In this document: positions 151 to 57,305 of the stretch, in pieces | How positions within the stretch are numbered: position 1 is the first letter of the stretch | How the letters are laid out: every line of letters starts with the position of its first letter | Assembly (NCBI RefSeq): GCF_019649055.1 | Contig: NW_026570261.1 | Span: forward strand, 868,001 to 932,000 | DNA from: Paramacrobiotus metropolitanus | Taxonomy: Eukaryota; Tardigrada; Eutardigrada; Parachela; Macrobiotidae | Reading direction: 5' to 3' | DNA: 64,000 nucleotides | Position numbers and translations under genes: made by a program | The notes under the pieces: generated by a model | Databases searched by the model: none | Seen by the model: only the letters and a program-made list of their open reading frames with translations | Told to the model about the DNA's origin: nothing

Positions 151-867
151 TTCTGGGGTGTAAGAAATGAGCGTTAAATTTGCTTGAAATAATCGGATGT
201 GGGTTTGGGGATCAGAAGTTTTTTCCGCTGAAGGTCACTGAGTACTTGATTGATATGCTATTGCCTTAGGTGCGGTGTGCAAAACATCGAGCAATTAGTC
301 AAGTAATCAGGTCGGAGGAAAATTTCGACTGAAAGTCACATCAATGCGGTTGTGAGCATTAGACAGTTGGCTGATGGATAGCTAGCGTGATACGTAAATA
401 GGTCAAGACAAGGATCTGATTACATTTTTCTTGTGCCATAAAGGTGTCTGTCGGCAAGATTAATTTCCTTGATAAGGTCTAGGACAGTTGCTGCGAGAAC
501 CGTACTTGATATAAACGTTTTCTAGCTCCAACAGGTTGATATATCGCGTGACAGCAAACATATCGCGTGACAGCTCTGCCTACAAGCAGTCTAGCCCTGC
601 AAGCCACACACCATTTTATCAAATTGTTGAATCTTCCTGGAAAGCACACTTTGCACGGTACACTAAAAAACTCCGGAAACTGAAAAACTCCGGTAGCGAT
701 GTATTAATTAATTTTAGTGACTCACTTAAGATGACGACAACAGAAAACTGTAACAACACTTCGCGGTTGCAGGGCCGGCTTAATCATATCTACAGATTAC
801 AGTCAGTGGCGAAACAGGGTAATTATATAATTTTTGCGACACTTCGCACAGTTCGCAGACTACTCCG
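151..867. other. Intergenic DNA, no gene seen
   Basis: AT-rich sequence with no coding pattern I can support. A 111-codon open frame at 536-871 has no recognisable motif and runs into the kelch pseudogene out of frame, so I treat it as chance. Confidence 0.5.
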
Positions 868-1326
868 GTAACCGGTATGACACCGCGACCAACAACTGGG
901 AATTTCTACCGGATTTGCCAGAATGGCGAAAGAGATTTGCTATGGTTGCGGTGAACGGCTATTCTGGGCGGGAAAGTATACATTTCTGCTGTTAACGTTG
1001 CGACTACTTTCACGGCTGACTGTATTCGTTTGAATAACTGAATCTAGAGACTGCTGCATGGGAATAAATGAAGCCGCTTCAACAGCCGCGGAGTTATCAT
1101 GTTAGCCTGCTTTGCCGAGAACAGAATATACGTATGCGGTGGCATAGACGTTGTGGAAAGACACGCTTTAATACTAAAATTATACACGGTTAACCGGAAA
1201 ACAGGGTGGTCGGCCGTCGCGGTCTTGGAAAATGGGGCTTAAATGCTGTCGGACTACACGGCAAAAACTGATAGAATGTTACTAGCCGCCATTTCTGTCA
1301 ACTTGTATGGCGACATTTCTCAATGA
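868..1326 (+). pseudogene. Kelch-domain fragment of the kinase-kelch family
   Basis: Translated pieces match the C-terminal propeller of the intact family member at 2220-5403. In order they are YDTATNNWEFLPDLP then KRFAMVAVNGY, an IRLNN piece, MKPLQQPRSYHV, ENRIYVCGGID, TGWSAV, and a tail ending VNLYGDISQ-stop. The pieces lie in different frames: the reading breaks near 960-985, there is a stop after IRLNN, and another in-frame stop follows the LENGA segment. No kinase part is visible upstream. It is a decayed 3' fragment of a family copy lying about 0.9 kb in front of the intact gene in the same orientation. Confidence 0.8.
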
Positions 1327-2219: not shown

Positions 2220-5200
2220 ATGGGAAACAACGCGTCCGACACGGTGAGATCCGTCCAAAATTTTGGCCGTACTGTGCAATATCACTATTCTCACGCGGAT
2301 TTAATTGGAAGAGGATCGTTTGGCGCTGTTTACAAAGCCAGGGTCACGAAGCGTGGCGATTATACAGGAGACACTGTTTTAGCTGTTAAAGTGATCCAAA
2401 CCTGCGCTCCGTCCCAAAAAGCCGCTGATTCCGAAGGCATGGTGCGAACCGTGGAGAGGTTAAGTAAACTTACTAAAATTACACATGCAAATCTCGTAGT
2501 CTATCACAAAGTGTCCATCATTGAAACTTCTGGCGGAGCCACAATCGAGCTAGCGATGGACTATCATGCAGGTGACTAATGTGTTTATTATGTTACTATC
2601 AAAAATTTTTGGCTAGGGCTATTTTCCCGCATTATTCTTCGGCGCGTGTAAATAGTCTTCGAGCATCTTCCTGCGCCTTTATTGCTCAGAAATTAAAACA
2701 AACTTTTACTTAACTTAAAGAAATCAAATCTAAAAATTCTAAGAAGTAAAAAATATTTAAAAAGAACAAAGAACTAAGAAGTAAATATTCTAAAGAGCTC
2801 CGCGGTAAAGTATCACGAATCTCGGGAACTCTGAGATATCAGGAATCTAAGTTATCAGGAAAGGATGAGGACTCGTTCAAGTTATTAATCGAGGCCAAGA
2901 CTGCGGCAAAACTGTAGTGTGCGGTTGCATAGCCAAAGGCTTGAAGGCCATTTTGGCGACCTCAGTGCGGTGTTATAGCCAGTGCCTAAGTACACCCGCT
3001 GTGTGTGACCCGCACAACTTTGAGTATTCATTTCGTCGCATTATAACTCACGCAGAACTTCTCCTCGCACAGGCATGTCGCGCGAGACATTTTGACGCCA
3101 ATGAAAGTTGTGACCGTCCAAAACGTGCAGAAGTGTAAGACCTCCGCCGGACGTTTTGGCCTTTAAACCGTCCTAGAACGAACGTATTATCCTAGTTAAA
3201 ACTTCTGGATAAGAATTTACCGTGCAGACTGTGAATTTGCCATCTTCTTCACGATTAACAGCGGAAAAAACTGGGTGGGCAAAATGTATGGCAGTCTTCT
3301 GGCGATTCCCGGACGTTTTGGAATTTCGACGGTTTAAGAGCCAAAACGTCCGGACGTCTTGACGGGACGTTAGACATGCTGTCGTTTTTGGGATTTACTG
3401 CACCTTATTGCTCACCTTACTGCACTTAACTCAAAACTCACGTTTCAAAAGTTTGCAACCGTTGTTACATCCCATGATGCTTGTACTATCACATCTGATC
3501 TCCGTCTGTCGCAGTGGCCAGTACAGCAAATATGCAGCAATAACAAGTGTGATGAGATTTAAAACAAAAGGCAAACAAAAAGTATAAAAAGTTGGTGTTG
3601 GATCCAATGGATTGAGTGCAATGGTTTGGATTGGTAGTGGAGAAAGGGAGAGAGGCGATCATAAATGAAAAAAAAAACAATTAAATAAAGAATATTAAAT
3701 TATATAAAAAAACAATTAAATAAAAAAAAGCGTTTTGCATTACTTTTCGGATGGCTTGTTACAGTAGAGAAAAATCTGTCCAGGTGATATGGCTGCTTTT
3801 CTGCGGGAAGCCAGGCAAAACCAAAATCTGCTTAACGGTTACAAAAAGATTGTTAATTTCGTGGAATCCATAGCTGAAGGACTAGACTTCTTGCATAACA
3901 TTGGCATCATCCATGGAGACCTTAAGCCGGAAAACATTCTTGTAAAAGTCGCAGGAAGTGGTTGCAAAACGTTCGTGATCAGTGACCTGGATGATACAGT
4001 TCAACTGGAAGGGAGCGTAACTCGTTCTGCTGACATATCGCAACTGCGCGGCACGATACGCTACATGTCACCGGAAGTGCTCAAGAAGTTAACCCAATTA
4101 GAAGCAGAGGCACCCGGGCGAAAAACCGATATTTGGAGCCTGGGTTGCATAATTCTGGAGTTGGCACAAATATCAAGTGGTGAGCGTAGGAAACGACTCA
4201 TTAAGAGCGGGAACGTCGTAGATATTGAGGACAACCTTACCGAAAACCAGTATGCCGCCAAAATCATCGAAGGTTTCGTGCCCTACGTTAGCGAAGACAA
4301 TGCACCCCTCTTTGCCGGTCTTATCCGAAAATGTTTGAACGACATTGCTGCGGAAAGGATATCAGCAAAAGAAATACTATTTAGTATGTTAAAAGAAAAG
4401 GAAGTTATTGTATTTTTTGCCTACGGCTGTAAAGTTGATCGCACTTTCCTCGTTTTATTACTCGACCCTGCCACTGGATCTCTAAACGCTCAGATAGCGG
4501 CCACGAAACTATCGCCATTCATTTGGCTTTCGACCGAATTCCGTCAGTTATCAGATACAGAAATTCTGTTTGCTGAGCGAGTAGATCTTCCAAACAGTCA
4601 AATTACGAAGTTGCATTTCTGGAATGCAGGAGAAGGAACATGGCGTGAACTGACGCTTTCATCAGGCATGCATCTGGACACACGTTTGGTAATGGTAAAC
4701 CGAAAGGGTTACTACTGGGATCGCAATGGACACTTCACAGAACTGGATACTTACACGGGCAGGACTGTTACTCTGAACAGTCCTCTTGCAAAGACTGGGT
4801 ACGTCTTAAAAGCTAATGCGTTTTCTTAGCGCAAGCAGACCATGAGCCATTCTAATTCAACCTTTGATTTGTAGCGTGGATTTCTCTGTATCAGCAGCGG
4901 CAAGATGTGGCAAGCGGATATATTATGGTACACCGTTCAGCTTGCATCAATACGATACGGTAGCCGACGAATGGGAAGCGTTACAAAAATTGCCAATTTG
5001 GCTGACGGAATTTGCAATGGCTGTAGTAAACAGCTACGTATACATTATAGGCGGACGTGTGTCGGGCGATGCACGTGCCTCAGCAGGCTGCATTCGTCAG
5101 AACATGAATAATCGGTTGTGGGAAGAGATGAAACCACTTAGACAGCCGAGGTATCGCCATGCTGCTTGCGTTATCAAGGAGAAGATATACGTCTGCGGTG

Positions 5201-5403
5201 GTATAGGTGCTAAAGGTGAGCACGCGCTTACAGTAGAGTTTTACGATACCAAATGCGACGAAGGATGGTCGACTGTCGGTCTGCGGAAAAAGGGCATTCA
5301 GCTGTTGTCGGACTTGGTGTCCAAATGTACTGAACATTTCGAGTTTATGAGCGCCATGTCGGTTCATCTGGATGGCGACATTGCTGCAGTTATTACTCAA
5401 TGA
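2220..5403 (+). CDS. Kinase-kelch fusion protein, intact copy (3 exons, 631 residues)
   Basis: Exons are 2220-2571, 3784-4798 and 4875-5403, with GT-AG junctions in phase 1 and phase 2; together they give exactly 632 codons with the stop. Residues 1-6 (MGNNAS) fit the N-myristoylation pattern, Gly2 and Ser6. The kinase domain (about 28-318) shows the glycine loop GRGSFGAVYKA at 30-40, Lys57 in AVKV, HGDLKPEN at 161-168, DLD at 185-187 where DFG is expected, RYMSPE ending at 215, and DIWSLG at 233-238. The catalytic Asp163 and Asn168 and the metal-binding Asp185 are therefore present, but HRD is HGD and the DFG glycine is Asp. The rest has the pattern of kelch blades, clearest at YVYIIGG and IYVCGG in exon 3. 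The kinase resembles the MAP3K/STE type. Myristoylation would place it at a membrane; substrates are unknown. Confidence 0.88.
2572..3783 (+). other. Intron 1 of the kinase-kelch gene, with repeat-like core
   Basis: This 1,212-bp intron separates the kinase N-lobe from the catalytic lobe. Around 3110-3380 it holds several copies, in both orientations, of words around ggacgttttgg, resembling sequence in the equivalent intron of the minus-strand kinase (8270-8680). It also has an A-rich stretch at 3665-3735. Confidence 0.7.
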
Positions 5404-6579
5404 AATACGTGCATTATTATTCAAAAAGCTTTTCAATGTGGATAATGGATATATTCCAAACTGTACTTACAGTCAAGTGGACGGATTAAATAACTGCGCT
5501 CGATTTATTGACTAGTTGAACAACTTGAACGATTCTACTTGAGACTATCTGGACATCTTTTCCTACAAGTTAATTGCTTAAGAGAGGTCATGCGGTACAT
5601 ACTCTGTAGTATCAAATAGTACATCAACTGAAACTTGTACATCAACTGAAACTTACGTTTTCGCTGTACTTACTGTACATCAACTGAAACTTACGTTTTC
5701 GCTCACTCCGACACAGATTTTGCGTCGCTTTATGACATTCTGCAGCCAAATAAGTTGTTCACGTAGGCGTGAAATTCGTTTGCGCGCGCAACATTCGGTT
5801 GGGTAGTTATGGGTGAAACGAAGGTCCAAAAAGTAAAAAAATGCACTCAAGTGTTCATAAAATGCACTCAAGGTTCATAAAATGCACTCAAGTGTACAAG
5901 AAAAGGGATTGCAAGTGTACTTTACTTAACCAGACGTAATGCCGAGTTACTTTCTCCCTGCAATAAATTGCGTATCTGCCGCGCGCACAATGGACAGAGC
6001 TGTTGACTTTGCCGAAAAACCACGGCAAACATGATCACCGATTCGGCGATTCACCGTTCCGTTTTAAAGCGATGATCGATCAATACAGCACTCACTCATC
6101 GCAAACGCTTAGAGCCGCCCCTTGTAGCAGGGGCAACGATGCCCCGGGTAGCTTTAATATGCAGAATGGGGTAAACCAAGCGCCTGCACTCATTTGCCTA
6201 TGCTGATACCATCACGCTGCTAGAATATGACATTGTGGCAGTACATAATTTATGGTTAAAATAGGCGCGGTACATCAGCGGTGTAATTCCACAACATCCC
6301 GTTCCAACCGGTGACGGCAACGAGTACAGCAGAAATTGCTAATCAACTATTACATCAATGGCAAATAGCGCCAATCGGAATGGTAAGGCAGCAGGGGTTA
6401 CCCGATGCACCATGGCCGTATTAGTTCGCATTTTCGCATTTAATTATAATTATAAAAAATATATCTACCTTTTCATTTTCTTTTAGAAGTAAGTTATTGA
6501 ATACTCCGCTAAAATGATTTTGCAGACCTTGGTTAAGGGCGTTTTCTAGCAAAATTATTGTTAATACGCTATATGTACT
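5404..6579. other. Intergenic DNA with two small tandem repeats
   Basis: No gene is seen. At about 5620-5703 the unit gtacatcaactgaaact is repeated three times, twice followed by acgttttcgct. At about 5837-5895 a roughly 20-bp unit containing aaaatgcactcaag occurs three times. The rest is unremarkable. Confidence 0.6.
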
Positions 6580-7177
6580 CAGGGCCGTAGCGAGGTCCGT
6601 GGGATGGGGTAGGCGCAATTTGGCTGCGCCATTTGCGCCCGCTTCGAAGGTCAGTCTGAGCCACTGCGCCCATAAATTTCGAAGCATGCGCCCGTTGCGC
6701 CCGTATAAACAGGCCGCGCTTTACTACTTTAATTAATATAAAATATAGTTTAATTATTATAGTTCTTGATCGCCGTACCTCAGACCAAGGCACATCGGCC
6801 AAAGTCCACTCTGCGCCCTGCGCCATTTGCGCCCGCTTCGAAGGTCAGTCTGAGCCACTGCGCCCATAAATTTCGAAGCATGCGCCCGTTGCGCCCGTAT
6901 AAACAGGCCGCGCTTTACTACTTTAATTAATATAAAATATAGTTTAATTATTATAGTTCTTGATCGCCGTACCTCAGACCAAGGCACATCGGCCAAAGTC
7001 CACTCTGCGCCACGGGCGCATGGCCAGTGGCGCCCGTGCGCCCTTTGAAAAATCCAGAAATTTTGCGCCCGTGCGCCTGTGCGCCAGTTTCGGGCGCAAA
7101 TATTATTCAAAAGTTGGCCGAGGAGGGGTAGGCGCGCGCCAGTGCGCCTATACCCTCGCTACGGCCTTGTATGTACT
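6572..7177. mobile_element. hAT-type MITE with 8-bp target site duplication
   Basis: The element spans 6580-7169. Its ends are imperfect terminal inverted repeats: the left starts cagggccgtagcgagg and the right ends cctcgctacggccttg. The 8 bp on each side are identical (tatgtact at 6572-6579 and 7170-7177). An 8-bp duplication and CAGGG-type ends are hallmarks of the hAT superfamily. There is no transposase. The interior is GC-rich and contains a 194-bp unit present almost exactly twice in tandem (6626-6819 and 6820-7011), so this copy has undergone internal duplication. It lies just downstream of the minus-strand kinase at 7527-9130. Confidence 0.9.
6626..7011. repeat. 194-bp tandem duplication inside the MITE
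   Basis: Two adjacent copies, 6626-6819 and 6820-7011, look identical on reading. Each begins gcgccatttgcgccc and ends in cactctgcgcc. The near absence of differences implies a recent duplication. Confidence 0.9.
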
Positions 7178-7526: not shown

Positions 7527-9130
7527 TTACCCAGGAAACATTTCCATCAGGTTTCTTGCTGATATTCTGACAGTGCTGGGGACACCAAAACAAGGGACAA
7601 TAAAGTTAGCGAGGTCGCTCGGAACACTAGCATCCACATGCGGGATATCACCATCGATAATTAGTATCTGGTATTGCTCAGGTGTCTTGTCAGTTGTATC
7701 TAGAACTGTATCGTTGTGCTTCAAGGACATGCGACTTATGCCAGCATGACAATTTGCTAACTGCAACATAATGCACCCCAAGCTCCAGACATCTGTTTTG
7801 CGTCCAAGTGGTTCTGTTGGCTGTTGAGCAAACTTTTTCAGCATTTCCGGTGACATATACCAAGGCGTACCGCGCAAGTGCGTGATGGGCCCGGATGACA
7901 TTTCTTCTTGCTGCGTGACCACAAAGTCATCTAAGTCGCCAATCAACAACGATTTCCTGTTACCGCTCACATGCTTAACCAACACATTTCCGGGTTTTAA
8001 GTCTCCATGAATCATATCTTTTTCGTGCAAAAAGTTCAATCCGCTAGTCAACTCTTTCATATATCGCACGACGGTTTCCTTATCCAGTGCTGCTCCAACT
8101 GCTCGTAGCATTTGCAGAACTGAGCCGAGGTCTTCGTCTACAAGCAACAGTAAAACATTATTATTCTCCAAAACAAGGAACATATATGAAGCGCCTGTTT
8201 TCAGCTTTTAAAGCCTTGCAACAAGAAGCCGAAGTTCTCAATTAAGTAAGGAATGCAATGCAGATCGAACAAAATGTCCAAACGAAAAAGACGTCCGATG
8301 GCATGGTCTGGAAGCAGACCAAAACTTCCGGGGCCAGGAATGTCCGTCGCAGGCTTTATCTAACCAGATTTTTCAAATTTTCCTCACAGGCTTCCTTAAT
8401 GGATTTAAATTTCGTACTGTGAACTTTTATTGGCATACAACCAGTCTCAGCATCACGTCGTTTACAGACCACGAAACGAATAAAATGTAACGCCGTCGCT
8501 CGCCGCACCGTTGTCGGTGACTTGAGAATTTAAAATTACTCAAAAAGCGACTGATGCATCAAAAAAGTAAATAAAACATGGGTGGGCTTACGTAGAACGG
8601 ATTTATTTTGTCCCGGACGGGGTGGCAGGTTTAACGACCTAAACGTCCGCCGGCTGTCTTTGTCATCCGGACTTTTTGTTCGGTTACATGTCTTCTACTA
8701 CTGGCGCTATGCTGAACGTAGCTTCGATTGATGATTGCGTAAACTAGAGTGGTGCTTCGCAAGTTATTAACGGTGTTAGGAACTCACCCCGATAGTAGTC
8801 CATTACAATTTCAATGCAGACGCCACCCAGTGCCTCCGTCACGGTAATTTTATGGTATGCAACCACGTTAGGGTGCCGAAGTTCCAGTAGCTTTTCCAGT
8901 TTAGCATACAAAGTTTTGTAGCTTTCTTTTGTAGGAAATTGTTTGCTAGATATTGGGACAACTTTCACCGCTACGATGTCGTCTCCATTAAAGCTGTTGC
9001 GTTCTGCAACCGTTGCTTTGTAAACTGTGCCACAGGAGCCCCTCCCGATGAAATCTCCATTTCCATAGCGGCATTTCAGCTTAGTCCCAAAAACACGGCT
9101 TTTCGTGTCCTTTGCATGCCGATCGTAAAT
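7527..9130 (-). CDS. Kinase-only member of the kinase-kelch family (no start codon found)
   Basis: Exons read on the minus strand are 9130-8788 and 8137-7527, with a GT-AG intron in phase 1 at the same place as in the intact gene. Exon A encodes YGNGDFIGRGSCGTVYKATV then VAVKVVP, ending MDYYRG. Exon B encodes MIHGDLKPGN, GDLDDF, WYMSPE and DVWSLGC, and ends RISARNLMEMFPG followed by TAA. Key kinase residues (Lys, HGD Asp, Asn, DLD Asp) are present. No in-frame ATG lies between the upstream TGA (near 9190) and the glycine loop, but an AG acceptor just before 9130 could join an upstream exon. The frame also ends at a GTAAAA donor-like site, and no kelch exon follows before the MITE. It is either a kinase-only gene with an unseen first exon or a truncated copy. 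Confidence 0.68.
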
Positions 9131-9993: not shown

Positions 9994-11086
9994 TTATAGT
10001 GCACTTACTTTTTTAAGTTCGATATAGACTTCTTTAGCCGATGGTCTCTGTTGGACTTTATGTTTGGGTAGCAGGCATCGTCGCATAAATACAGCCAGAT
10101 CAGCTGGTACATCATCGCTCACAAACGGGACGTGGCCGGCTTTAATCAATTCCCTGTAGCGTTTATCAGATATGTTATCTCCTGATTCTCTGACTCCTTT
10201 GGTGTCGCTGTAGAAAAGCAGCTTGCCATAGTTCTTCGTGAAACAGCACGCAAGATCCAGAATAATGCAGCCTAAGCTCCACACATCGCCTTTTGGACCA
10301 GGCATTTCTCTTGTTTCACGATCGAACATCTCGAGTGTTTCCGGCGACATATAGCGAACAGTCAACGAACCTCCCAAGTCAACGCTACATGTTGCGTCAT
10401 TCCGGGATTTAGCAAAGTCGTCTAGGCCACTTATTTTTAGTTTGTACGAGTATTCATCGTTATTCAAGCGCTCTAACAGCACAATTTTCGGCTTCAGGTC
10501 TTTATGCACAATTTCTTTCCTGTGCAAGAAGCTAATTCCATCTGCAAGCTCAATAGAATAACGCAGTAATGTTTCGAGTTTGAATGTACTTCTGCGTTTC
10601 TCAAGGTTGTCCAAGTAACTTGCTAAATCGTCTCCTGTTAAGAAATAAGCACAATTTCATGAACTTTGCATTGGTAGTAGTTTAGACAAACTGCTTACCT
10701 TCTACATAATCCATCATTAATTCAATGGTCGCGCCTCCTTTCGAAACTTTGGAAGGGGTTATAGTTATTTTATGATAAGTAATTAGATTTTCGTGGTGAA
10801 GTCCAATTAAGAGTTTCAGCTTGTGCCGCAGTATATCAACGTATATGGGATTGGCGGAAAGTTCCCTGTCACTCAAAATAATTTGCTTCACGGCGACAGT
10901 TTGTTGCGGCAGCTCTGGCCGTCGATGTCCCCAGCAAGCCACGAATGTATCCAAAACACCGCGATTGTTGATGACCGTTGCTTTATAAACGGCACCGAAG
11001 TGGCCTCGTCCGATACAGATGTTGGTATATCTGTACGTGCAGTTGCTGCCGAATTCTTCATGTTGCAACTGCGTGTGTCGCTCCAT
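9994..11086 (-). CDS. Kinase-only family member with degraded catalytic motifs (342 residues, probable pseudokinase)
   Basis: Exons on the minus strand are 11086-10699 and 10634-9994, joined by a 64-bp GT-AG intron in the family's conserved phase-1 position; the total is exactly 343 codons with the stop. The N-terminus (MERHTQ) lacks the myristoylation motif of the other copies. Visible motifs are GRGHFGAVYKA (26-36), Lys67 in VAVKQ, HKDLKPKI (173-180), GLD at 199-201, VRYMSPE and DVWSLGC. The Asn after the catalytic Asp is Ile180, and the metal-binding DFG Asp is Gly199, so ordinary phosphotransfer is unlikely even though the reading frame is intact. The frame ends ELKKVSAL-stop, overlapping a good GTAAGT donor, so a further exon cannot be excluded. 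No kelch sequence is found downstream. Confidence 0.8.
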
Positions 11087-12153: not shown

Positions 12154-14190
12154 ATGGGGAACATCAGTTCCAGTGCAGTGGTAGATTCAGTTCCATTGGT
12201 ACGAGTGGAACAGACTGGTAGCAATATGCAGTACCGATTTTCACGTGATGATCTTATTGGAAAGGGAATGTTTGGAATCGTATACAAAGCCAGAGTTTCA
12301 AAACGTGGCGATTATACAGGAGAAAATGTTGTTGCTGTCAAAGTGGTACACCTTGATGCGAATTCTGAAGCTTTTTGCAACACAGAAAAATGGGCAAGAA
12401 TCCTGTCGGGATTAAAAAGGCTCATATATCTGCAGCATCAACATCTCGTAGTTTATCATAAAGTTTCGATTTTCAAAGATTCCCGCGGGGCTACATTTGA
12501 GCTGGCAATGGATTACTGTCAAGGTAACACGATACTCATGCATTAGATGCATAGCAGCTCTTCGGTAACCAGATTCGATATCATACGTAAACGTTTTCTA
12601 GACGATCTGGCTTCTTTTCTCGAAAACGCTGAACGAAACAGGAGCTTGGTAACAACTTATAGAAAAGTGGTTCGGCTCGCAAAGGACATTACCTGGCTTC
12701 TTCTCGAAAACGCTGAACGGAAACAGGAACCTGCAAATATTCTAGTGGTTCGACCACAAATGACAGGGAAATGCTTCTAATTTGCATCAAAATATTGGGC
12801 GACCTAAAACCTGCAAATATTCTAGGTAACAAATGGTGAAATGCTTACGTGATCAGGTTACATTGAAGTGCAAATGTTCTGGAACATAACCCACTTACAA
12901 AACCATGTCGCCGGAGAAAACTTTTACTTTGAAATTGATAATGCTGAATTTGAGTTTTTGCAATGCTGAAATAAAAATGGCGAGAAAATTTTTAAAAATG
13001 GCATTTTTGAGATAAATTCTCTTAATCAATCAACGTTTAATCATGTTACGTGCCATTTGTGAGCGCCGACATTCCTGAGCACTTAGCCGTTCTCATCCGA
13101 CAGTGTTGCGAGCTCTTGAATAAAGATTGAATAACCTAAGGAACAAAAAAGTTTTTGTTGTGCTTTTGTTAACCAGTTTGTTAATACTGGATCCCTTACC
13201 CAACTCTTTTAGAGTTCGGGTGTGTAACGTGCCAACGTCGATAAATTCACTGTCGGCCCATAATATTCAGTTTTCTAGTGCAGGAACCGAAATAATGTTG
13301 ATAGAGTGGGCGAATAATTCAGATTGCGGAAATGTGAAATGTCACTTCATAAACGTGAGCAATGGATCGCATCGCACACTACGGTCTTCTTTGCTGATAC
13401 GCCACATGCCAGCCGTTGTAGTCAAACCCAAGATTTATTTCTATGACGGCAGGTTCTTTGCGGAAATGGATATTCATGACGGGAGTGTTGTGCCCCTGAA
13501 GACTCCTCCTTTCAGAGCTAAGTACGCAGCAAATGTTTGCGTTGCACAATTATTATACATCACATAACGCAGCATACAAAGTGTAACAGTATTTTTTGTT
13601 GCAGCACTCGTTCATCTATAGAAGCAGCTGCAAAATGTCGCAAGCAGATATTTTATATAAAAGGTTTAAATTTGGAACGGTATGATACGAGATCCAATGA
13701 ATGGTATTCTTCTTTCCCACGTTTGGAAAAACGTCGACGGAAATTTGCTATGGCTGTGCCGAGCGGATACGTATACATCCTTGGCGGAGATTTCGGGACA
13801 GACTCTGAGTTTGTTCCCACAAATAACTGTATTCGTTTGAATATAAAATTTGCGACGTGGGAAGGGATAAAGCCGCTTCGATAGCCAAGATTTGAACACG
13901 TTGCTTTCGTAATCAGGGATAGAGTGTACGTTTTCGGCGGCAAAGATGCTGAAGGAGAACCGGCGACATCAGTGGAGTTCTACGACATTTACCGTGACAC
14001 AGGATGGACCGAGGTCGCATTATCAGATAAAGATAAGGGACTAATGGTAGATATGGCCGGTTTATGTCAAGGATTTTGGGCTAAAACAGCCACTGTATGT
14101 GTTACTCTGGATGACGATGCGTCAGCAGATGTTGTTAGCTCACCTGCACATTGGATCCAGCATCTTAAGCTTTCGACAGTTTTTCAGTGA
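12154..14190 (+). pseudogene. Kinase-kelch pseudogene with scrambled catalytic region
   Basis: Exon 1 (12154-12523) is intact and starts MGNISS, again a myristoylation pattern, with GKGMFGIVYKA and VAVKV and ending at the family's phase-1 donor. Exon 2 begins near 12601 (DDLASFLENAERN) but soon decays: LLLENAER is repeated, DLKPANIL appears twice in different frames (about 12730 and 12800), an MSPE piece appears near 12905, and the C-lobe end (PFVSADIPEHLAVLIRQC) is followed by TGA at 13126. The kelch part continues from 13127, crosses a GT-AG intron (13522-13604), and reads RRKFAMAVPSGYVYILGG. It then meets an in-frame TAG (13882-13884) exactly where the intact copy has Gln in KPLRQPRY. After that, VYVFGG and the tail to 14190 are intact. 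It cannot make the full protein. Confidence 0.87.
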
Positions 14191-23319: not shown

Positions 23320-23799
23320 CTGTTGATCGGTGACCTGGATGACATTTTTCACATGCAAAGTACCCACACCGGTTCGGAGGCACACGGACGGAAAACTGAC
23401 ATTTGGAGTTTGGGGTGCATAATTCTGGAGATGGCCGAAATATCTTTTGGTGTAATTCGTCTAAGCACTGATACTGGAGCATGGGAGGAAATAGAGCCTC
23501 TTAAACTGCCCAGATATTACCATGATGCTTGTGTTGTCGGTGATCGAATATATGTCTGCGGTGGCAGAAACGGTGATTGGGCGTCTGCTGTAGAGGTTTA
23601 TGTCACTAAACACCCCACACAATGGTCCACTGTCAATTTGCGGCAAACGGACATCCAGTTGTTGTCGGATATTATAACAGAATCGGGGGCAAGGGTTCAG
23701 ACTATGTCGGTTTGCCTGGAGGAGGACTGGAGGACACTGCTCCAGAAACCAATCACCGATCACGCTTCTTACGGAAGCATGCAGCTTAAGAGCTCATAA
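23320..23799 (+). pseudogene. Internally deleted kinase-kelch fragment in a continuous frame
   Basis: The frame begins LLIGDLDDIFHMQS, jumps over part of the activation segment, continues AHGRKTDIWSLGCIILEMAEIS, and then passes directly into the kelch C-terminus (IRLSTDTGAWEEIEPLKLPRYYHDACVV, RIYVCGG), ending after KSS-stop. Against the intact copy, roughly 250-300 codons and the last intron are missing, yet the frame stays open across the junction. The glycine loop, lysine and HGD are absent. Most likely a deleted remnant; if transcribed it would encode a short kelch-rich peptide. Confidence 0.78.
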
Positions 23800-54505: not shown

Positions 54506-57089
54506 AGACGTTTTTTCAGCTTTTAGATTGGCTAATCGGGAATGATCGCAGCCCGATGTTGTATTTCTTAGCAGCTCCGCTGTGATTTTGTTATTATGCA
54601 ATAAACTAACTGATTTTATGTGTAGTTTCTGCAACTGTACAATAGAGACATCAGCGATTTCTGGCCATTGGCAACCATATAAGTTTAATTCTAACTTCTA
54701 GAGGATCGATTCAGTTGGACTGTGGACCGATTTAATTACTGCGCACCAGGAATGGCGAAACAAGGTAAAGACGTACAGATAGGTCATAAGGCAATTTCTC
54801 CATCCTTTCAGACTTGGTTGACACGGTGGAAGCTGGCACGTTTACTTAGCAAACTATGCAGCTGTAGAAGCAAAACTTTTCTAACTGAACTTTTGGACTA
54901 ATAATTACCGGGTAAAGGTTGCGCTATACAATTGCGCTAGCTACCTGGGATCACCTAACTATTTTTGCTTCTCTACAATGTTTCAGCAAGCGAAGCACAG
55001 CGTGGGAGATGTCACTTTATTGCTTTTCTTGCAAAAGCTTAGTCAAAAACTTTGGCCGGGTTTACAACCTTATCAAGAAGCACTGCTGTCACTGTAAGAA
55101 TATTCATTCTTTCGTATTCTTGGTACAGCTATTATTTTTTACGGAGACATTCATTTTCCGTTAAATATTCCAAAGTGCCGCATTCATACTCGACATTTCC
55201 CTTAATGGCAAACGGAATTTATTTAATTATTGACATGTTTTTACCTTTAGTAGTTTAGTGCATAGGGCCACAGGAATACACAGATGCGAGTCAACAAAAA
55301 TCGATACGTCATCTCGAAACACGCAAGCTCGGATAATGCACGAGTACCATATTAAGAGTACTTAGGAACTCGTAATGGTGTGATCTGAAGCGAATTTCAT
55401 TTTCAATTCTGCAAATGCTGCTCTGTATACGCTCCACTTTTCCTTATGTAATTTCACCTCTACTATTTTATAGCTGGGTTTTGCCTTTCTGGGATTTGCC
55501 GGGTTCTTAATGGAAAGGTCGGAAGATTTCCGAGGCGGGGAAATGGTTACTGAAATCCTGAAGAACTTGACACAAGGTGTTAGTGTTGGACAACCCAGCC
55601 CTGTCCGATGACCATATTCAATAACATAAACCACGAATGTACTTTGAAATAAGCTAGCTTGCTATGATTTCGAAAACCGTGCACTGAATGCGGTGTCTGA
55701 GATTAAATATTTATTAATTAAAAATGTCTGAGAACATATGCATGTACGAGTATATAATGATGTTTATTTAATTCGTTACTTTTGGCATATTCAGAGTGTT
55801 TTGTCGCGGAGTTTTGGTAGAGTATTCTCCACAGATCGCAGGACGGAAATAAACCTGAAATACTATGAAACCAGTAACTATGACATTTTTAAAAAGAAAC
55901 TGACGTGTACGGGCGTACTAGCCCCGTACATATCGGTACTACTTCTACTACTTCTACCCCGAGGCTTAGGCTTACTCCTTACTACAGCCCCTTCTCGAGT
56001 CATGGCCGCGAGTCTGTATTTCGACTTCTCAGAAATCTCCGGGAAAGAACTTTGACCGCGACTTGCCATTTCGACGTGACCGCGGTTCGATGACGTACCT
56101 CAACCTATTGTTCTAGTGTACTAGCTGACCTCATGTTCTTATTGGGCCACGTGTGTAGATGCTTTCTAGATGCTCTCATTAGATTAGTCCACGTGCATGC
56201 AGTCGTGTCTCATTGGCTTACGTTTAGATCTCTATTGTTCTCAGATCTATACCTGCGCGTACGAAGAGCCGCACCTACGAGTGCCCAGGGCTATATAAGG
56301 CGCTCGTCGCCCACAGAAATGTCAAGAGTCGTAATCCCAACAAAAGTAGAGGCTTGTACTCAATCTGATTAACTTCAGGCTTTTGCTCTGGTCTTCTCTT
56401 TCCAAGTGATGCTGTTCAAACTGACCTCTGGGTGACCTTTCACCTATTGTCAGGGGTCATCCCTCTATCTCGTCGACGTGCATTATCATCTTCGGATAGT
56501 CTCGTGACGTAACATGTTTCCAACTTGATCCCACTTGTTTGCCTTGACCTTTCGGTCTGTTCTTCGTTCTTCATGCCCTGTATCGCCAGGTTGATGGATA
56601 TTTCTCTTATCGCTTCTGCTAACATCTAGCGTCGGACAGGTAACGTATACTTCTCCGTCGTTTGTGTTTCTCGTGTTTCCAGGATCCGGACCTCTTTTCC
56701 TTTTCTACTTCTACCAGATCAACGTTATCTTCCTACCATCTTCCGCAACAGTTTGAGAAAGAGTCGCTCTATCCGATTGTGACGTGGTCGGACAAGTGGA
56801 GATAGTATCCACTTTATTGTGCAAGGTCTTTACTTCACGTCAAAACCTATTGCACTTGCATAAGAATTAGTGCTTTTTTCTTGCTCGCATTCAGCCCTGA
56901 AGGCTAGTAAACCAAACTCGTCTGCAATAACGACCGATGTCAACTGCACAAGCGTCGAGGTAAAGTTAATTGGCGGCGCACTTTGTGAATTTGCACCAAG
57001 CGCTCGTCACAGGATCGAGCATGACTTAGTCCTGAAGTCGTTTTTACCACTGACGCCGAACGGAACGCAAATCAAGCATACCGTCTCTC
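54506..57089. other. Intergenic DNA; possible promoter-like string
   Basis: No gene is supported. A TATA-like ggctatataaggcgc lies at 56289-56303, followed by pyrimidine-rich sequence that could be an LTR or UTR, but no partner LTR or ORF was found. Confidence 0.4.
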
Positions 57090-57305
57090 GTAGTGCTCGT
57101 AGTAGAGCTGGTATTCGGTTCGTTATAGTATGTTGTAAGCACTTTCGGATCAAACTGGCTAAGCCGGTCATTATGTCATTAGTGGTAAAAGGCGAAAACC
57201 CATTCATGATGAGAGTGGCGTACCGGTCACTAGGCAAGGTATTTTCGATAGCCACTGTATTTCCAATATGTATGAGCTGCTTTCTATTGGTACCCCTCCC
57301 CCCGC
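57090..57305 (-). pseudogene. Kinase C-lobe fragment of the kinase-kelch family
   Basis: The minus strand reads TNRKQLIHIGNTVAIENTLP, then SDRYATLIMNGF, then ASLIRKCLQHTITNRIPAL. This aligns without gaps to RRKRLIKSGNVVDIEDNLT, ENQYAAKIIEGF and AGLIRKCLNDIAAERISAK of the intact copy, residues about 253-312. Nothing of the N-lobe or kelch part is recognisable nearby. It shows that family debris extends 50 kb from the main cluster. Confidence 0.75.

Follow-up and report, generated by a model that had tools for sequence, protein, structure and literature searches.

Proteins that unite a kinase and kelch motifs in a single chain have been described in Entamoeba (PMC5648430, PMC2939887) and in trypanosomatids (PMC1266030, PMC8519429), according to the available extracts of these reports. 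In the Entamoeba Src-like kinase EhSrc a protein kinase is joined to KELCH motifs, as it is in the gene analysed here; the extract of its description reports Src kinase activity assayed with an inhibitor as well as an interaction with actin, and indicates that the propeller could not be identified in the authors' model of the KELCH 1 domain (PMC5648430). EhSrc differs in being described as a Src homologue, and the same extract makes no mention of a large diversifying family (PMC5648430). Kinase and kelch also share one protein, as here, in the Leishmania major kelch kinase (PMC1266030) and in T. brucei Tb927.5.3150 (PMC8519429). However, each appears in the accessible portions of these papers as a single gene, and the T. 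brucei protein as a transmembrane kinase. Among the titles found by combining tardigrade terms with kelch or with an expansion of kinases, a partial coverage of the literature, none dealt with this family.

The kinase-kelch gene and its family

The gene lies in what we call the window, i.e. the whole stretch of 64,000 nucleotides under analysis (Table 1). Its three exons are joined in frame by GT-AG introns and code for a protein of 631 residues, and the spliced aligner that we wrote for this analysis recovers them exactly. A Pfam scan of the window protein identified a Pkinase domain (PF00069) at residues 24-316 (E 7.1e-32), and Kelch_1 (E 1.2e-11, above the cut-off) in two stretches, both coded by exon 3 and the best at residues 547-583. 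These results bear out an earlier note on this DNA, which had read a kinase and a kelch propeller in one 631-residue frame across three exons, and had suggested an HMM search of the joined protein for both domains.

Table 1. Exons, introns, and kinase motifs of the kinase-kelch gene, and other pieces of the same family in the 64-kb window
Feature	Position	Strand	Remarks
Kelch-half relic	861-1320	+	Related; two stops, a frameshift
Exon 1	2220-2571	+	MGNNAS start, glycine loop, invariant Lys57
Intron 1	2572-3783	+	GT-AG, phase 1, codon 118; position and phase common to 35/40 paralogous loci
Exon 2	3784-4798	+	Remainder of kinase domain and divergent first propeller half
Catalytic-loop HGD (HRD in ordinary kinases)	3912-3920	+	Gly in 37/40 loci, Asp in 40/40
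DLDD replacing DFG and the next residue	3984-3995	+	First Asp in 39/40 loci; Asp at the DFG glycine in 38/40
Intron 2	4799-4874	+	GT-AG, phase 2, codon 456; intron at 448-464 in 31/33 spanning models
Exon 3	4875-5403	+	Recognisable kelch blades 4-6, C-terminal tail, TGA stop; Kelch_1 and Kelch_6 matches
Related kinase	7545-9118	-	HGD and DLDD; modelled part without frameshift or stop; kelch half not detectable
Divergent related kinase	10009-11059	-	HKD; Gly replaces the DFG Asp; kelch half not found
Kinase-kelch pseudogene	12154-14127	+	Begins MGNISS; three frameshifts, two stops
Chimaeric fragment	23362-23727	+	Kinase piece, end of blade 5, and blade 6 in a single frame
Small kinase fragment	57055-57294	-	Same family

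Six further pieces of the family are present in the window, where 2220-5403 is the only full-length and undamaged kinase-kelch gene. The divergent kinase at 10009-11059 is probably catalytically dead, because of the glycine that replaces its DFG aspartate. Such a mix of gene and relics looks like birth-and-death evolution, and the locus itself is a functional-looking member of a large kinase-kelch family. Two repeats were also seen by eye: short near-identical units, acatcaactgaaacttacgttttcgct and aaaatgcactcaag, recur just 3' of the gene (5620-5900), and a unit of ~190 bases is present in two near-identical copies at 6625-7015.

We surveyed the family in the 169.8-Mb assembly that contains the window (at G000:C41:868001-932000). 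The window protein has at least 97 matches (70 of 967 candidates scored), and a kinase-exon query, consisting of a 202-residue stretch of the paralogue L006, has at least 150, down to E 1.4e-30 (150 scored out of 661 candidates). When these 150 kinase exons were paired with 104 of the 130 C-terminal kelch matches, 69 of them (67 distinct) were followed on their own strand by a kelch exon at a distance of at most 4 kb; in an opposite-strand control, a kelch exon lay that close to four of the 150. The fusion, which the earlier note had called unusual, is therefore not a one-off, being found in Entamoeba, in trypanosomatids, and in at least 67 loci of this genome, a lower bound that includes pseudogenes. 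Four loci that the pairing counted as devoid of kelch (L043, L047, L049, and L050) in fact carry divergent kelch exons, and that of L049 matches Pfam Kelch_1 at E 5.5e-16. Some near-identical pairs, such as L007/L032, may represent haplotype duplicates.

From the best matches of the window protein we modelled 40 paralogous loci, each model being guided by that protein. Spliced models are full length (start at residue 21 or before, end at residue 590 or beyond) and undamaged (no frameshift or stop) for 22 of the 40. A phase-1 intron at codon 117-118 recurs in 35/40 of these guided models, and at the same place in 14 of 15 additional loci with a kinase; an intron at codons 448-464 is present in 31 of the 33 models spanning that region, with phase 2 at 454-458 in 20 of the 33. 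Since these positions recur across loci, the fusion is older than much of the expansion. Kelch-bearing copies are found in both deep and shallow branches of a kinase-lobe tree of 56 sequences (midpoint root, without support values). The recurrence of the introns exceeds what is expected by chance, and on the evidence of the paired exons and of the gene models the kinase-kelch fusion is no artefact. One locus, L001, was considered as an intronless copy, its residues 2-625 aligning in one open frame, but this reading was dropped because the spliced aligner interrupts the copy by two short introns of 66 and 75 bases, both in frame.

A viral or a prokaryotic origin was also considered. The kinase profile on viral contigs gave 13 pattern matches and the propeller profile on prokaryotic contigs gave 21, none of them a relative; as these scans rest on one or two peptide patterns each, distant viral or prokaryotic relatives could be missed. 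As for tardigrade markers, two lipocalin families used to look for SAHS-type proteins retrieved no more than a fatty-acid-binding-like protein and two weak matches.

The kinase module also occurs in other architectures. In two minus-strand loci, L042 (G000:C85:93700-96700, frame 739-2778 on the reverse complement) and L046 (G000:C150:133000-136000), the HGD kinase leads in a single open frame into Hsp70 (PF00012, E 2.5e-89 and 3.4e-31, respectively), and from their predicted products both are kinase-chaperone fusions. Tandem two-kinase copies, with or without kelch, are found at L036 (C161), L037 (C1), L038 (C19), L047 (C171), and L015 (C65), the two domains being recognised by Pfam for L036 only, and by eye for L037, L038, and L047. 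Finally, the kinase copies L041 (G000:C55) and L045 (G000:C253) show by eye a hydrophobic, transmembrane-like stretch; a P-loop-like motif was likewise seen in L041, where Pfam gives no match beyond the kinase.

N-terminus and kinase domain

N-myristoylation follows a rule of glycine at position 2 and a small residue at position 6. The Gly2/Ser6 motif that the earlier note had pointed out is indeed present in the window protein, which begins MGNNAS, and from it we infer membrane tethering of this protein. An MG start is found in 10 models (the window gene and nine of the 40 loci), eight of which also have Ser6, including all four members of the window gene's own branch. Gly2 is absent from the start of many other family models; therefore lipidation, if real, would be limited to part of the family.

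Concerning the kinase, the window protein belongs to the Pkinase family by its fold profile, its invariant Lys57, and its catalytic Asp163 and Asp185; having HGD in the catalytic loop, it falls outside the RD kinases. These features extend to the paralogues. Lys57 is retained in 36 of the 37 loci covering that column, Asp163 and Asn168 each in 40/40, and Asp185 in 39/40, and the position of the HRD arginine is occupied by glycine (37/40), alanine (two), or serine (one), and by arginine in none of the 40 loci. Across the genome, the pattern HGD(L/F)KP has 177 matches against eight for the reversed pattern, and GD(L/F)DD has 118 against 18 for its reversed control, counts that may include proteins outside the family.

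A single-sequence search of solved structures with the kinase returned no kinase at E up to 1e-15. With the family profile, 24 solved relatives were listed, namely CDK6, CDK4, CDKL3, ULK1/2, MAP3K5, and one partly named PKR, all of which score between E 9.5e-23 and 9.5e-21; none of these 24 sequences (E up to 1e-20) bears the name Src. The label 'MAP3K-like' given to the kinase at first is thus not confirmed, MAP3K5 being one of several equally distant profile relatives.

The window kinase is a non-RD kinase that is probably catalytically active; the aspartate that replaces the DFG glycine could impair its activity. Being non-RD does not amount to being free of activation-loop control, since activation-loop phosphorylation is reported for a plant non-RD receptor kinase in the available part of one study (PMC8463890). 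Alternatively, DLD and HGD may be the marks of a pseudokinase with a role in binding nucleotide or partners, within a scaffold whose working part is the propeller. Such a dead or weak kinase could explain why aspartate takes the place of the DFG glycine in 38/40 loci, why the HRD arginine is missing from all 40, and why further residues have been lost in some loci, one of them inside the window. However, the near-complete retention of Lys57, Asp163, Asn168, and Asp185 would be unexpected were catalysis dispensable, and we regard a scaffold of this kind as unlikely.

Propeller and diversifying selection in one branch

Kelch_1 is matched at E up to 0.1 in all nine propellers searched (that of the window protein and of eight paralogues), and the solved relatives of the second propeller half are designed kelch propellers, Keap1, and KLHL proteins including KLHL12. 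We compared blade profiles made of up to 28 sequences each. The best of the 15 pairs were 5-6 (P 1.9e-6), 2-5 (1.1e-4), 2-3 (3.2e-4), and 4-6 (6.9e-4), their local matches being in register for the most part. Support for blade 1 is weak (P 0.004 at best, against blade 4), and three of the 15 pairs, 1-5, 1-6, and 2-6, gave no match (P 0.36 to 0.64). From these profiles a six-bladed C-terminal propeller is plausible. AF2 models of single exons from single sequences reached a pLDDT of 32.8 for exon 3 and 36.5 for exon 2, too low to confirm a full propeller at residues 320-631.

Kelch domains are best known for picking the substrates of ubiquitin ligases. The family could derive from a BTB-kelch protein and function as a ubiquitin-ligase adaptor, to which the kinase would have been added as a regulatory part. 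Among natural solved structures the propeller is indeed close to Keap1/KLHL, but neither a BTB nor a BACK domain was matched in the Pfam scan of the window protein, which by the missing BTB stands outside the BTB-kelch Cullin-3 adaptors, and such an origin is in our opinion highly improbable.

In KLHL20, the substrate surface is formed by the BC and DA loops, according to the accessible part of the structural report (PMC6720452). In one young branch of the family, C220/C232/C113, a conserved kinase is combined with a propeller under diversifying selection that is concentrated in these BC/DA loops. We applied codon site models (own implementation, IQ-TREE tree) to the 8-9 sequences of this branch. 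The kinase has an M0 omega of 0.30, and M2a is not favoured over M1a (2dlnL 2.55; p 0.49 in the strict set). For the first propeller half omega is 1.14 (2dlnL 21.19, p 2.5e-5) and for the second 0.66 (2dlnL 26.93, p 1.4e-6), with a favoured site class at omega 3.3 to 4.8, these models being without a term for gene conversion, which can inflate such tests. The propeller signal remains significant when the set of sequences is changed or the gap filter widened, in 6/6 such variants (p 2.8e-3 to 8.9e-8). In a list of the 40 closest pairs, the ones inside this branch have a dN/dS of 0.17-0.40 in the kinase and 0.32-1.00 in the propeller, and L006/L021, L012/L025, and L012/L028 show no contrast between the two.

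The favoured sites cluster on the predicted substrate face. With loop anchors that were assigned after the site list had been seen, and that we take to follow the kelch motif by likeness to Keap1, 12 of the 66 BC/DA loop positions have a posterior >0.8, against four of the 165 positions elsewhere (16 sites, Fisher 8.8e-5). None of these sites falls in the 35 opposite-face turn positions included in the 165. At a posterior >0.5 the counts are 22/66 and 9/165, and at >0.95 they are 6/66 and 1/165 (p 0.0025; top versus bottom p 0.072).

A separate observation concerns the pair L002/L003 (G000:C220), where the kinase is near-identical (dS 0.025) and the propeller ~nine times more diverged (dS 0.224). 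This contrast would reflect gene conversion, likely between tandem copies, or an exchange of halves.

The two other branches tested show no significant selection, either in the window gene's own branch (four sequences, p 1 and 0.11) or in a third one (six sequences, p 1 and 1), and our claim of selection is therefore confined to the C220/C232/C113 branch. In the window gene's branch, sites that evolve fast at the 0.8 level lie on both faces (13/59 top, 5/34 bottom), so that the concentration on one face does not recur in this branch. The proposal that the kinase carries its own substrate-binding platform is thus strengthened by the diversifying selection seen, in a sister branch, on the face predicted to bind the substrate, but not by the branch of the window gene. 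In pairs and branches outside C220/C232/C113 the propeller omega is 0.16 to 0.62, which indicates that the propeller is constrained there.

These data bear on whether the propeller might simply drift under relaxed constraint after duplication, in a family composed mostly of decaying duplicates. Pseudogenes and relics inside the window, an omega near 1 in the first propeller half of one branch, and two branches with no significant positive selection are what drift would leave behind. It would account poorly, however, for a favoured class at omega well above 1 whose sites lie in BC/DA loops and in 0/35 opposite-face turns, or for the constraint on the propeller elsewhere in the family, and we judge relaxed constraint alone to be quite improbable. 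Both it and a pseudokinase scaffold are less well supported than a kinase output with a variable face that chooses partners.

A further explanation is conflict-driven recognition, whereby the paralogues would sense, inside the cell, pathogens, parasites, or other ligands that evolve fast, the propeller serving for recognition and a shared non-RD kinase as the output. Large copy number, clusters, pseudogenes, and a kinase that is conserved while binding loops evolve fast in one branch are all consistent with such sensors, and kinases without the HRD arginine have been linked to innate immune signalling across kingdoms, as stated in the available part of one source (PMC8463890). Against this, two of the three branches tested give no significant selection, and reproduction or substrate specialisation can yield such patterns too. 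To our knowledge, immune recognition in tardigrades is poorly known. An immune role for the kinase-kelch family, the boldest of these readings, is possible, and conflict as its driving force seems to us conceivable but doubtful.

Proposed function and comparison with known systems

On balance, the reading that we favour, and regard as reasonably probable, is that of a non-RD kinase tethered to a membrane, with a propeller that selects the partner and paralogues that diversify in binding. The N-terminal glycine would be myristoylated and would hold the protein at the membrane. The kinase would be active and, lacking the HRD arginine, would be regulated unlike ordinary RD kinases. The BC/DA face of the C-terminal, probably six-bladed propeller would bind a partner or substrate and bring it to the kinase. 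Duplication would make gene copies, many of which end as pseudogenes, and the surviving ones would retain the output (the kinase) and change the input (the propeller face), at least in one branch. That the family might go as far as to represent a new class of animal intracellular receptor, defined by a myristoylated non-RD kinase, a diversifying kelch face, scores of genes, and a module also present on Hsp70, is a more speculative idea that we put forward with little confidence.

In this family of at least 67 fused loci, the face with which kelch domains select substrates seems to select the partners of a kinase. The contrast between kinase and binding loops in one branch leads to a testable claim, that of an arms race or of partner specialisation, and the HGD/DLD signature provides a handle for finding the family elsewhere.

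Among the systems most similar to this family, the KLHL/Keap1 propellers are sequence relatives of blades 4-6 and have their binding face in the BC/DA loops, but they are joined to BTB-BACK and not to a kinase. Plant non-RD receptor kinases, which also form large families, share with the window protein the missing HRD arginine and the joining of a recognition part to the kinase. They differ in being membrane receptors with other recognition domains, and we claim homology for the kinase fold only. The kinase-kelch fusion is known in protists; the scale that it reaches here and its pattern of selection are new.
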